From NCBI GenBank assembly GCA_023475265.1, contig JAMCWE010000123.1, positions 1 through 41,946 of the forward strand: 41,946 nt of DNA, written 5' to 3'. This document shows positions 1 to 11,584 of the stretch, piece by piece. The stretch is from Bacteroidota bacterium. Lineage in GTDB: Bacteria; Bacteroidota; Ignavibacteria; Ignavibacteriales; Ignavibacteriaceae. Positions within the stretch are counted from its first letter, which is position 1; every line of letters begins with the position of its first letter. The translations under genes were made by a program, and so were the position numbers. The notes beneath the pieces were generated by a model. It searched no databases, had not been told where the DNA came from, and saw only the letters and a list, made by a program, of their open reading frames with translations.

Positions 1-90
1 AAAGTTTTTCCTTCCTTCGCTCAGCATTAGACTCTGAACCTAGCGTGCCTACCTGCCGGTAGGCAAGTCTACCAATTTCACCATCCGGGC
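1..90 (-). tRNA. tRNA-Leu(CAG)-like gene, 5' part only, with D-arm insertion
   Basis: Read on the minus strand from position 90, the sequence opens with acceptor strand GCCCGGA, then TG, D-stem GTG, a D-loop of the AAATTGGTAGA type, D-stem CAC, G26 and an anticodon arm CTAGG-TTCAGAG-TCTAA with anticodon CAG after T33. This is the layout of a leucine tRNA. A 20-nt segment (about 47-66) interrupts the D arm; removing it restores a normal GTG/CAC stem. Position 27-43 of the anticodon stem is a C-A mismatch. The sequence after it, up to the window edge, has no recognisable T-arm, so the variable region is long or also altered. The 3' half lies outside the window. It may be a functional tRNA with a tolerated insertion or a decayed copy. 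Confidence 0.72.
46..65. repeat. 20-nt hairpin-forming element inside the tRNA-Leu D arm
   Basis: The 20 bases TGCCTACCTGCCGGTAGGCA have two perfectly complementary 8-nt arms (TGCCTACC / GGTAGGCA) around a TGCC loop. The element sits exactly where the D-loop joins the 3' D-stem strand of the tRNA-Leu-like gene, and its GC content is far above the flanking DNA. No second copy was noticed in this window. Confidence 0.8.
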
Positions 91-101
91 AATTCAATGA
101 A

Positions 102-276
102 CAATTAAAAATGTAAAATTAAAAATTCAAATTGCATTTCAAATTTACTATTAAATCAAAAACTAGTCTATATCCTTAGAAAATTATTTCTCAATATATT
201 TTAATTAACCATTGCCACTAAACTTATTTTTTCCCTTACCTAGTACTTTTAATTTTTAATTTTACATTTTTAATTG
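102..276. repeat. AT-rich element with perfect 26-bp inverted arms
   Basis: Positions 102-127 and 251-276 are exact reverse complements (26 of 26), separated by 123 AT-rich bases without a reading frame. The arms start CAATTAAAAATG and end in AAAATT. The element lies between the tRNA-like gene and the 3' end of the penicillin-binding protein gene. It could be a small non-autonomous (MITE-like) element or a large cruciform or terminator structure. No flanking target duplication was found. Confidence 0.65.
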
Positions 277-288
277 ATAATTGTTTTC

Positions 289-2571
289 TTACCATCCTGA
301 CTGACCGGTATTATCTTCCTTCTTTATCTTATTTCCACCGCCGCCGTGGATTTCACATTTAGCCGGCAGGTTCTTTGCGTTTATAATATCCGTTACTACA
401 GCCGGACAATTGCTTGTGGCTAATCTTGTATCGCCTAAATCCATTGTCGCTTTGCAGAAGGAAACTGTATCAATCCCCGATGCCATCTGGAAATAATTTA
501 CAGGCAGATTTAATTCTTTATAAGCGCCTTCCATAAATATTGCCCAGATAGGCATAGCGGCTTTTGCGCCCTGTCCGTACGAACTTGTAAATTTAATCCT
601 ATGATCATCAAAGCCGACCCAAACTCCGGCAGCAAGCTGAGGAGTGAATCCAACAAACCATGCATCGGAAAAGTTTTGTGTAGTTCCGGTTTTGCCGGCG
701 CAAGGATATTGAAAATATCTTCTAACTCCGGCGCCCGTTCCATAGTTTACAACATCCTGCAGCATGTTTGTAATTATAGATGCAGTCTGCGGAGAAATTG
801 CTTCTTGATAATCCGGAACAAATTTATCAATTAATATTCCGTTTCTATCTTCGATTTTCAAAATTGAAATAGGATCAACATGAATACCGTTATCGGCAAA
901 CGTGCCGTATGCTGAAGTAAGTTCAAGCGGAGAAACATCGGAAGTTCCCAGCGCAATTGAAGGAACTGCATCGAGCGGAGATTGAATGCCCATTCGATGT
1001 GCATATTTTACAACCTGCCATGGAGGAGCCATATTGCTTATAGTTAAACGCCCGGCAATAACATTTATAGAAAATGCAAGGGCTCGTCTCAATGTCATGT
1101 ATCCGCCGTAATCATTTTCAAAATTATCCGGCGACCATCCATTGTAATTAAACTTTTGATCAAGAAGTGTATATGCTGGAAAATATCCATTATCAATTGC
1201 AACTGTATAAGCAAATGGTTTAAAAGCAGAACCAGTCTGGCGTTTAATTCCGGTAACATGATTTAATCCTCTGCCGAACTGTTGATTCTCACCACCAACC
1301 ATTGCCCTTATTTGTCCGTTTGTAGGATCAAGAACAACAAAACCAACTTGAATAGTTGTAACAGCTTTCTTAACTGAATCAATAAAATGAGGATCGTATT
1401 TTAAGCTGTTATATACTTGAGCTTTTTCCTGAGGTGTTTTAACAAGATTGTATTGATGACTATCCTTAATTGCTCTATCAAGAATGCTGGCTAACAAATC
1501 CTGGTGTTTGTTCCAATTCCAAAATTTATCAAACATCGCTTGATATTCTTTCAAATGAGCAGCCGCTGCTTTATTGGCAATCTGCTGCATCTTTAAATCT
1601 AATGTTGTGTAGATGTTTAGCCCGTCGCGGTAAAGATCATAGCCATATTTTTCGGACATGGCAACCATTTGCTGACGGATATATTCCATAAAGTAAGGCG
1701 CATCGGATTTATTGCCGATTATTCTATCCGAAGAAATATCGATTGGTTCGTTTTTCAGTTTATCATATTCCGATTCCGAAAGCATTCCGTTCGTAACCAT
1801 ATTATACATTACCTGGTTTCTTCTTCTTAACGCATGATCGGGATGCCGGACAGGATCATAATATTCCGGTGATTTTAACAAAGCAACAAATAATGCACAC
1901 TCGGGAAGAGTAAGGTCTTTTCCTTTTTTATTGAAATAAACTCTTGCTGCAGATTCAACTCCGTAAGCGCTTCTTCCAAAATAAGAAACATTAAGATATA
2001 GCTGAAGAATTTCTTTTTTGGTAAAAGTTTTTTCAATTTGAACAGCGCTTATCCATTCCCTTATTTTTCTAATTCCGGTTTGAAAAAGATTTTCGTCTCT
2101 TACTTTAAAATGATAAAGATTATTTGCAAGCTGTTGGGTAATAGTGCTTGCGCCTTCATGCCTGAAAAGGAAAATATTTTTGATCATTGCCTTGATGAAA
2201 CGGTTAAGATCGACTCCCCAATGCGAATAAAATTTTCTGTCTTCAGTGGAGATTAAAGCGTTTGGCATGTATGATGGTAAACTATCGATATTTGTTTCAA
2301 TTCTATTCTGAATAGAAATTGTTCCAATCAGTTCGCCGTTAATTCCAAAAACCTTGCTGGCAAGTTGAGGTCTGGGATTTTCAAGCTGTTCAAGCGAAGG
2401 CAGACCGCTTATAACGTAAATTCCAAATGCTAGGAAGAAAGCAAAAATTATCCCGCTGATAATTAAAATTCTTTTTCTCTTACCGCTGCTTGATTTTTTC
2501 TTTTTATTACGTTGTAAAGCATCGTCAAAATATTTACCGTATTCAAAATTCTGATTTCTAATTTTTGCCAT
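289..2571 (-). CDS. mrcA: Penicillin-binding protein 1A (bifunctional peptidoglycan synthase)
   Basis: Class A penicillin-binding protein of 760 residues that polymerises glycan strands from lipid II and cross-links stem peptides at the periplasmic face of the inner membrane. A Lys/Arg-rich cytoplasmic tail (about 21-34) precedes one transmembrane helix (about 35-56). The GT51 domain (about 85-270) has the EDRKFYSHWG motif with catalytic Glu110 and GASTITQQLANNLY (140-153). The transpeptidase domain (about 400-690) has SAFK (Ser448, Lys451), SIN (501-503) and KTGT (627-630). Length is normal for PBP1A. The start codon lies one base after the lpxH stop codon, so the two are almost certainly co-transcribed. 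Confidence 0.95.
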   Translation of the reverse strand: MAKIRNQNFEYGKYFDDALQRNKKKKSSSGKRKRILIISGIIFAFFLAFGIYVISGLPSLEQLENPRPQLASKVFGINGELIGTISIQNRIETNIDSLPSYMPNALISTEDRKFYSHWGVDLNRFIKAMIKNIFLFRHEGASTITQQLANNLYHFKVRDENLFQTGIRKIREWISAVQIEKTFTKKEILQLYLNVSYFGRSAYGVESAARVYFNKKGKDLTLPECALFVALLKSPEYYDPVRHPDHALRRRNQVMYNMVTNGMLSESEYDKLKNEPIDISSDRIIGNKSDAPYFMEYIRQQMVAMSEKYGYDLYRDGLNIYTTLDLKMQQIANKAAAAHLKEYQAMFDKFWNWNKHQDLLASILDRAIKDSHQYNLVKTPQEKAQVYNSLKYDPHFIDSVKKAVTTIQVGFVVLDPTNGQIRAMVGGENQQFGRGLNHVTGIKRQTGSAFKPFAYTVAIDNGYFPAYTLLDQKFNYNGWSPDNFENDYGGYMTLRRALAFSINVIAGRLTISNMAPPWQVVKYAHRMGIQSPLDAVPSIALGTSDVSPLELTSAYGTFADNGIHVDPISILKIEDRNGILIDKFVPDYQEAISPQTASIITNMLQDVVNYGTGAGVRRYFQYPCAGKTGTTQNFSDAWFVGFTPQLAAGVWVGFDDHRIKFTSSYGQGAKAAMPIWAIFMEGAYKELNLPVNYFQMASGIDTVSFCKATMDLGDTRLATSNCPAVVTDIINAKNLPAKCEIHGGGGNKIKKEDNTGQSGW

Positions 2572-11388: not shown

Positions 11389-11398
11389 AAAATAAAAA
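11387..11398 (-). terminator. T-tract terminator of the SRP RNA gene
   Basis: On the minus strand the closing stem of the SRP RNA (GGGCA paired with TGCCC) is followed directly by TTTTTATTTTTT, so the RNA's own terminal stem probably doubles as an intrinsic terminator. Confidence 0.65.
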
Positions 11399-11484
11399 GG
11401 GCAGTCGGTTACACAAGAATTATGCTTACCGCTGCTTCCTTCCGGATCTGACGGGGTTCGGCACTATCCTGTTAACCGGTGCCC
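11399..11484 (-). ncRNA. ffs: Signal recognition particle RNA (4.5S type)
   Basis: On the minus strand the 86-nt sequence contains the near-universal SRP domain IV core TCCGGAAGGAAGCAGCGG within GTCAGATCCGGAAGGAAGCA, including the GGAA tetraloop and the asymmetric internal loop bound by Ffh. The ends GGGCACCGGTTA and TAACCGACTGCCC pair to close the hairpin. It is the short form without an Alu domain, as in most Gram-negative bacteria. Exact ends are set by the pairing and could differ by a few bases. Confidence 0.95.
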
Positions 11485-11584
11485 AAATAAAGTACCTCTC
11501 TTCTTACATTGAGGGATGCAAAGATTGAAAAATTTTTAATCTATTACAAGGAAGAAAATAAAAAATTATTTAATCGGTTTTTCT

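Follow-up and report, generated by a model that had tools for sequence, protein, structure and literature searches.

The window (the whole 41,946-nt stretch analyzed) was contig C100 of a 4.77-Mb draft genome in 270 contigs, and it began with a displaced 5′ piece of a tRNA-Leu(CAG) gene, which forms the upstream border of a GIY-YIG nuclease cassette; an intact tRNA-Leu(CAG) forms the downstream one. Window 22-90 (minus strand) corresponded to tRNA-Leu(CAG) nt 1-49 split by 20 extra bases, and the minus strand of this edge displayed (i) tRNA nt 1-24 at window 67-90, identical to nt 1-24 of the intact copy (L009 366-389; see below); (ii) a 20-nt palindromic insert of the CCTGCCTGCCGGCAGGCAGG family at window 47-66 (equally 48-67), delimited by alignment with the intact copy; (iii) tRNA nt 25-49 at window 22-46, containing a C27-A43 mismatch (CTAGG/TCTAA) and no T arm, and recognized through direct repeat D1, in which the remnant was 91% identical to the intact tRNA-Leu(CAG) across 32 nt; and (iv) the leader of the GIY-YIG gene at window 1-21, identified from the overlap with an adjoining contig that held the ORF. 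The piece was called as a tRNA by neither ARAGORN nor Rfam.

In alignment with the intact copy from the adjoining contig, the insertion point lay exactly after nt 23, with 0 mismatches in the 16 flanking bases and no target duplication at the insert; the 20-mer could be placed at 66→47 or 67→48, the junction base C being common to both. By our reading, this point fell at the D loop/3′ strand of the D stem. The insert formed a hairpin of 8 bp with a 4-base loop and arms TGCCTACC/GGTAGGCA, its final base being the tRNA's own. The D-arm insertion described in the original prediction was accurate to the base, and the 8-bp hairpin with a four-base loop and the C27-A43 mismatch were present as predicted. 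The tRNA match stopped at nt 49 and was followed by the nuclease gene, so the missing T arm, which the prediction had noted for the visible part, was not a mere truncation at the window edge. A search of the genome for the 20-mer, as had been proposed, gave 11 matches at up to 3 mismatches (0 for the backwards-read control), among which the window's site lay on two overlapping contigs and so should count twice; the window's own 20-mer was 3 mismatches from the family consensus.

Window 127-1 was identical to L009 1-127, the start of contig C86 (BLAST over 90 nt), and an exact overlap of this kind is what assemblers leave between neighboring contigs. C86 carried, in order, the tRNA piece (L009 38-106), a short leader, a GIY-YIG nuclease ORF of 77 codons with a TTG start (L009 126-359), 6 nt, and the intact tRNA-Leu(CAG) (L009 366-450). 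A gene that we take to be PBP1A-like (window 289-2571, minus strand) served as the syntenic marker tying the contigs together: an intact tRNA-Leu(CAG) adjoined this gene in relatives, which favored the join, and the adjacency of C100 and C86 thus appeared supported by the 127-nt overlap plus synteny. An assembly artefact at the contig edge, for which the placement of the feature at a contig end with this overlap might speak, or an ordinary tandem tRNA duplication and decay, would be a highly improbable account, given that dozens of genomes assembled independently of one another, two of them as single contigs, showed the same part order (see below). The overlap at window 1-127 also suggested branching of the assembly graph, and a strain variant with a different continuation may exist. 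In the spacer separating the tRNA piece from the PBP1A-like gene, two copies of a 26-nt A+T-rich stretch aatttttaattttacatttttaattg faced in opposite directions, at window 102-127 and 251-276 (by eye), the outer edge 127 coinciding with the start of C86. The sole Rfam match of the window at gathering score was a bacterial small SRP RNA (window 11393-11487, minus strand).

The intact tRNA-Leu(CAG), which started 259 nt past the window piece and carried no insert, was the only full copy found in the genome when other tRNA-Leu(CAG) genes were counted as the prediction had advised; other long matches were the leucine tRNAs TAG, GAG, and TAA, plus CAA at L017, and three matches of 14-17 nt fell outside the full-copy count. 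A decayed tRNA with a palindromic insertion, one of the two readings originally offered, was right; the other, a tolerated and possibly processed insertion, found no support here, the piece stopping at nt 49 and the intact copy further on being free of the insert.

No integrase was found between the tRNA copies, the only ORF of at least 60 aa there being the GIY-YIG gene, and the site-specific integrase encoded by tRNA-targeting integrative elements was thus absent. In bacteria, tRNA-Leu is a host of group I introns. Group I introns are mobile insertions in bacterial tRNA genes, some with homing genes (PMC3984707); unlike them, the locus contained no catalytic intron RNA, with Rfam matching nothing but the tRNA within L009 1-1200 at E ≤ 1. 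Candidate terminal inverted repeats AAAAACTT/AAGTTTTT around the nuclease gene were discarded as not above mismatched-pair controls, and terminal inverted repeats went beyond the control's 99th percentile at 0 of 87 loci, with a control tail inflated by shared palindromes.

The 77-aa GIY-YIG nuclease and comparable systems

The nuclease ORF matched PF01541 (E 5e-18). Across 30 aligned proteins, Y5, Y16, R26, and H30 were conserved and E62 nearly so, all of them being invariant or close to it; we take these to be the positions known as catalytic in GIY-YIG enzymes. An AF2 model displayed a complete fold (pLDDT 95.9). In 12 hand-picked nuclease pairs, some with saturated dS, dN/dS was 0.04-0.37, indicating that the nuclease is under purifying selection. 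The protein thus had the intact catalytic domain of a free-standing GIY-YIG homing endonuclease, and it occupied its own ORF between the tRNA copies, with no intron or intein as host.

The protein consisted of one catalytic domain without a DNA-binding part, and among solved folds it came closest to UPF0213 and SLX1, with the I-TevI catalytic domain next, every one of these having E above 1e-3 in Foldseek; sequence-specific homing was therefore not obvious. UPF0213 1ywl matched by sequence at E 7e-4, while TM was 0.57 for 1zg2 and 0.62-0.70 for SLX1, which, by structure entry titles, acts on branched DNA. We know of neither UPF0213 nor SLX1 as a tRNA-linked cassette. The phage collection gave three matching records at 32-34% identity (two from one Rhizobium phage and one from an uncultured phage) and no T-even phage; the likeness to SegB drawn below is one of layout and arrays. 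A phage or plasmid origin was rejected, only these three phage records and one plasmid record being found, all below 39% identity.

The free-standing GIY-YIG enzyme SegB of phage T6 makes its cuts within tRNA genes, 23 of 83 sites having a motif, and it drives tandem amplification of tRNA-Tyr plus segB in a manner needing UvsX and UvsY (PMC13096335). The cassette was like SegB and other free-standing GIY-YIG enzymes of T-even phages in enzyme class, the lack of an intron, placement at tRNA genes, and tandem tRNA plus nuclease copies (PMC13096335, PMC2988022). Read in reverse complement, the SegB motif RAWTSGAAC would resemble the T loop, the tRNA neighboring the window being one base off. Unlike SegB, the cassette lay on bacterial chromosomes, encoded 77 aa without an extra domain, had one subfamily mostly at tRNA-Leu, and included a duplicated tRNA fragment carrying a hairpin. 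The mitochondrial atp9 of Armillaria with its LAGLIDADG ORF likewise presents a free-standing endonuclease beside a partial copy of the neighboring gene, and it differs in involving a protein gene, mitochondria, and another nuclease family, with no hairpin mentioned in the available text (PMC6506933).

A literature search, in which few subscription papers were covered, found no description of the cassette among the matches listed, as judged by titles and the starts of abstracts, no paper joining GIY-YIG, tRNA-Leu, and Bacteroidetes, and none with the palindrome string or on dispersed palindromic repeats in Bacteroidetes.

Recurrence of the cassette and of its hairpin

Short peptide patterns, an approach favoring close relatives, were used to scan 84,980 species genomes and gave 123 nuclease relatives. 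By record title, the best 80 of these 123 came mostly from Bacteroidota and Ignavibacteria, plus CPR bacteria, and in 76 of them ARAGORN found a co-oriented tRNA within 600 nt of the nuclease (75 with tRNA-Leu and one with tRNA-Ser only); at the other four loci (L037, L047, L098, and L100), tRNA pieces were seen by eye. The gene thus adjoined a tRNA in 76 of the 80, and the tRNA would be the cut target. Two layouts were observed: (i) DOWN, composed of a tRNA 5′ piece, the nuclease, and the intact tRNA, as at the window's locus, and (ii) UP, composed of the intact tRNA, the nuclease, and a tRNA 3′ piece.

At the 77 loci with an intact neighboring tRNA (window included), a tRNA remnant on the opposite flank beat the best of 50 shuffles in 72, the remaining five having no remnant above shuffles. 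The palindrome (up to 5 mismatches) was present on the remnant side at 61 of the 77 loci, could be placed inside the tRNA sequence at 57, and was found in 0 of the 77 intact neighboring tRNAs. Insertion after nt 23 accounted for 31 cases, and other insertions lay after nt 7-9, 14-15, 21, 22, 24, 32, 39, 60, 64, 65, and 70; by our reading, most of these points fell in loops or at the borders between stem and loop. When the hairpin criterion was loosened (stem 8, 1 mismatch), a hairpin was scored on 66 of 77 remnant sides vs 12 of 77 intact tRNAs, and the controls gave 40 of 443 for distant windows and 33 of 385 for shuffles; several remnant sides without a score held a visibly shorter or cut-off palindrome.

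These counts bore on whether an interrupted gene could still give a working tRNA, with the insert tolerated or removed from the RNA. The anatomy excluded this for the window, and elsewhere the absence of the palindrome from all 77 intact tRNAs beside the nuclease made it a most unlikely reading; in its favor stood one locus (L037/L177, G330:C162), where a full-length tRNA-Leu(CAA) had a D-arm palindrome and an uninterrupted full copy was not found in the draft genome, which was, however, a metagenome bin of uncertain completeness. A separate oddity was L036, a Flavobacteria-like tRNA-Leu/nuclease locus labelled Rhodobacteraceae, probably on a misbinned contig.

In a quick tree (SH-aLRT only), the Leu-type nucleases formed one clade, which included L018, a long branch at tRNA-Ser. 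The position or layout of the remnants followed the nuclease tree, requiring 16 changes vs a shuffled mean of 32.4 (as low in 0 of 200), with labels assigned by hand and 55 of 95 inner branches of the tree open.

Nuclease relatives were present in 52 of 59 genomes drawn as relatives, a set that included the window's own, and paralogues lay near tRNA-Ser, Cys, Arg, Pro, Asp, Glu, Met, and tmRNA; ARAGORN found no tRNA at L018-L021, L023, L122, and L132, nor at L106/L137, which were loci cut short. Arrays of nuclease plus hairpin-bearing tRNA piece were found at tRNA-Leu, Ser, Arg, and Asp (L133, L134-L136 in G030, L138, and L139 in G013), with five 450-nt units after tRNA-Leu in single-contig G030 and five 315-nt units after tRNA-Asp in single-contig G013. 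Those remnants of the Ser, Asp, Pro, and Arg lineages that were read by eye had different hairpins, located in the D, anticodon, or T arm.

The window's genome displayed further paralogue arrangements. At L022 (G000:C167), a nuclease gene came after tRNA-Pro(CGG), the pair being flanked on both sides by partial copies that contained hairpins, and at L023 (G000:C236), a paralogue lay ~155 nt from the tmRNA gene. L020 (G000:C171) and L021 (G000:C178), unlike the copies at tRNAs, were inside protein genes, presumably a four-helix S23-like gene and a tyrosine-recombinase-like gene; they were flanked by inverted repeats GCCCCGTGTAAT and ATCCCGTGAG (12 nt, p 0.03, and 10 nt, p 0.05, respectively), the longest unrelated ones in the set and weakly beyond control.

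Empty sites and the proposed spread of the cassette

The site beside the PBP1A-like gene was compared in 18 chosen genomes, 12 of them congeners; 17 held the gene, G011 giving no match for it. An empty site, with an intact tRNA-Leu(CAG) beside the gene, was found in 8 of the 12 congeners (G003, G004, G005, G006, G007, G009, G010, and G012; inverted tRNA in G004), and the fetched stretches at these eight sites contained neither nuclease nor palindrome. This distribution went against the 20-mer being, in all relatives, part of a different conserved RNA, which the original prediction had named as its counter-case. As for other congeners, the G002 sequence ended within a tRNA whose D arm was uninterrupted, and G001 and G008 had no tRNA beside the PBP1A-like gene. 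The site was also empty in two other genera (G016 and G019), it was occupied in the window's genome (G000) and in G013 and G030 (two further genera), and in G025 an intact tRNA adjoined a decayed one. Present and absent alleles at the same site, as expected of a homing endonuclease, were thereby observed.

None of the 12 congeners held a close nuclease (E ≤ 1e-25), and with the site empty in eight of them the window's cassette would have been recently gained or else lost many times. Compared to the window's genome, G013 had a nuclease 74% identical and a flanking gene 63% identical, while the corresponding values for G030 were 63% and 68%; the nuclease of G030 being less alike than its flanking gene, identity did not point consistently to transfer. 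The sequence GTGAAATT was common to the empty site of G004 and to both tRNA copies in the genome of the window, instead of which the other tRNA-showing congeners had GTGGAATT. This pattern would fit a duplicated half derived from the resident tRNA, a reading that is only suggestive because the G013 remnants also read GTGAAATT.

From the resemblance of layout and arrays to the phage T6 SegB case, the cassette is probably a homing element of SegB type, chromosomal and without an intron, that lives as a parasite of tRNA genes, with the hairpin disabling the displaced piece. A free-standing nuclease of this kind would cut tRNA-Leu genes, and the break would be repaired from a cassette-bearing copy or via unequal recombination between tRNA pieces, leaving a tRNA piece, the nuclease gene, and an intact tRNA, sometimes in tandem. 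The tRNA would stay usable through the re-forming of one complete copy, while the hairpin would break the D arm (mostly in 5′ pieces) or the T arm (mostly in 3′ pieces) of the leftover. A piece so broken would no longer be a tRNA or a nuclease site, and it may be a poorer partner for recombination deleting the cassette. The anatomy of the locus, its recurrence, the empty sites, and the selection acting on the nuclease were observed; cutting of the tRNA gene, spread by repair, and the hairpin as a disabling mark are what we infer. Self-immunity is the weakest point of the tRNA-parasite reading, because the sequence of the tRNA is unchanged in the intact copy at the cassette and the hairpin alone would not explain how the cassette escapes its own enzyme.

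The hairpin might instead act in RNA, either preventing pairing between the tRNA piece and its intact counterpart when both are on one transcript or controlling translation of the nuclease, an unlikely alternative on balance. In 46 predicted co-transcripts, the mean pairing probability of the intact tRNA's acceptor stem was 0.495 vs 0.361 with the insert removed in silico (p 8e-4), and ribosome-binding-site hairpins upstream of T4 homing genes, including segB, are described (PMC2988022). A shuffled insert was, however, not significantly different (0.423, p 0.42), the window's locus gave 0.004 with the insert and 0.006 without, the UP layout puts the hairpin after the nuclease gene, and the shared transcript of the parts was assumed. 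Prevention of misfolding was accordingly set aside as a weak candidate for the purpose of the hairpin, being no better than a shuffled insert significantly and absent at the window's locus.

Palindromes dispersed across genomes

Two palindrome families, the first of type CCTGCCTGCCGGCAGGCAGG and the second of type TCCCGAY-n-RTCGGGA (taken from tRNA-Asp and tRNA-Pro remnants), were counted across the phylum in 296 genomes with a completeness of at least 90%, the first at 2 mismatches, together with the wider nuclease family (E ≤ 1e-3). The first palindrome was present in 62 and the wider-family nuclease in 175 of the 296 genomes: 58 held both, four the palindrome alone, 117 the nuclease alone, and 117 neither (Fisher p 3e-11). 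All 36 genomes with at least two first palindromes held the nuclease, and 11 of the 12 with a close-type nuclease (E ≤ 1e-25) had the first palindrome, vs 51 of the 284 others. The second palindrome was found in 210 of the 296 genomes, with at least three copies in 116 of the 175 with the nuclease vs 17 of the 121 without; rich genomes without a nuclease match included G168 (34 copies) and G167 (27). A within-family permutation gave p 0.0034 for the first palindrome and 0 of 20,000 for the second, as a partial control for descent with 77 genomes of the remaining families pooled as one stratum. Within f24, the largest family with 65 genomes, a tie to the nuclease was seen for the second palindrome (78% vs 21%) and not for the first (4% vs 5%). 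Backwards-read controls were 0 in most genomes, the exceptions reaching 9 for the first palindrome (G140) and 4 for the second (G052).

A tie exclusive to the nuclease was rejected, for congeners without the Leu-type nuclease held up to 51 copies of the first palindrome (G007, which had four more distant nuclease relatives). The 20-mer also occurred in ORFs and spacers away from tRNAs (by eye), and no consistent target-site duplication was seen at the dispersed palindromes of 15 loci (by eye). At L015 (G000:C265:35752-35771), a palindrome copy was seen by eye to occupy the loop of a different hairpin repeat, GTAGAGACGCA...TGCGTCTC, and at L172 (G013:C1:2549489-2549508), L162, and others, palindromes seemed by eye to lie inside ORFs or at their termini, and some of them may be in frame.

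The Rickettsia palindromic elements are likewise palindromic and dispersed, lying in ORFs and in RNA genes (tmRNA and M1 RNA), and they measure 105-146 bp (PMC2229807). The comparison with them in the original prediction stood as a resemblance, insertions in ORFs (by eye) and in tRNA remnants being found here too, and it failed as membership: the insert was 20 nt, the phylum was different, and the target was a tRNA leftover beside a nuclease gene.

The palindrome could be an independent small mobile repeat, of the kind of the Rickettsia elements or REP sequences, that accumulates in dispensable tRNA leftovers and is unrelated to the nuclease, in keeping with its copies away from tRNAs, its abundance in congeners without the Leu-type nuclease, and the up to three palindromes held by a single leftover (L096, by eye). 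We regard this as doubtful in view of the 31 insertions at one exact junction, the remnant positions or layouts that follow the nuclease tree, the nuclease in 58 of the 62 genomes with the palindrome vs 117 of the 234 without, and the within-family permutation.

A bolder and only tentative extension of the tRNA-parasite reading is that small GIY-YIG nucleases may be the engine of short palindromes in Bacteroidota-type genomes, forming a palindrome-plus-nuclease mobile system, on the basis that both palindrome families tracked the nuclease, also within families. A single-domain structure-selective enzyme would invade tRNA genes, and the enzyme, or repair of its cuts, would insert palindromes at stem-loop borders, in parallel to REP and RAYT but with tRNA genes as home.

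Movement of short palindromes is called hypothetical and without experimental support in the available text of a 2007 review (PMC2229807). In the genomes studied here, the nuclease family resided at chromosomal tRNA genes of Bacteroidota, Ignavibacteria, and CPR bacteria, and as a rule its cassette left a complete tRNA plus a hairpin-broken piece. To our knowledge, tRNA-tied homing nucleases had previously been known only from phages. If the tRNA-parasite reading is true, it would account for the stray tRNA halves and orphan GIY-YIG ORFs of genome annotations, it would present a natural case of a selfish gene sparing an essential RNA via a complete copy, and it would offer a testable engine for short dispersed palindromes.
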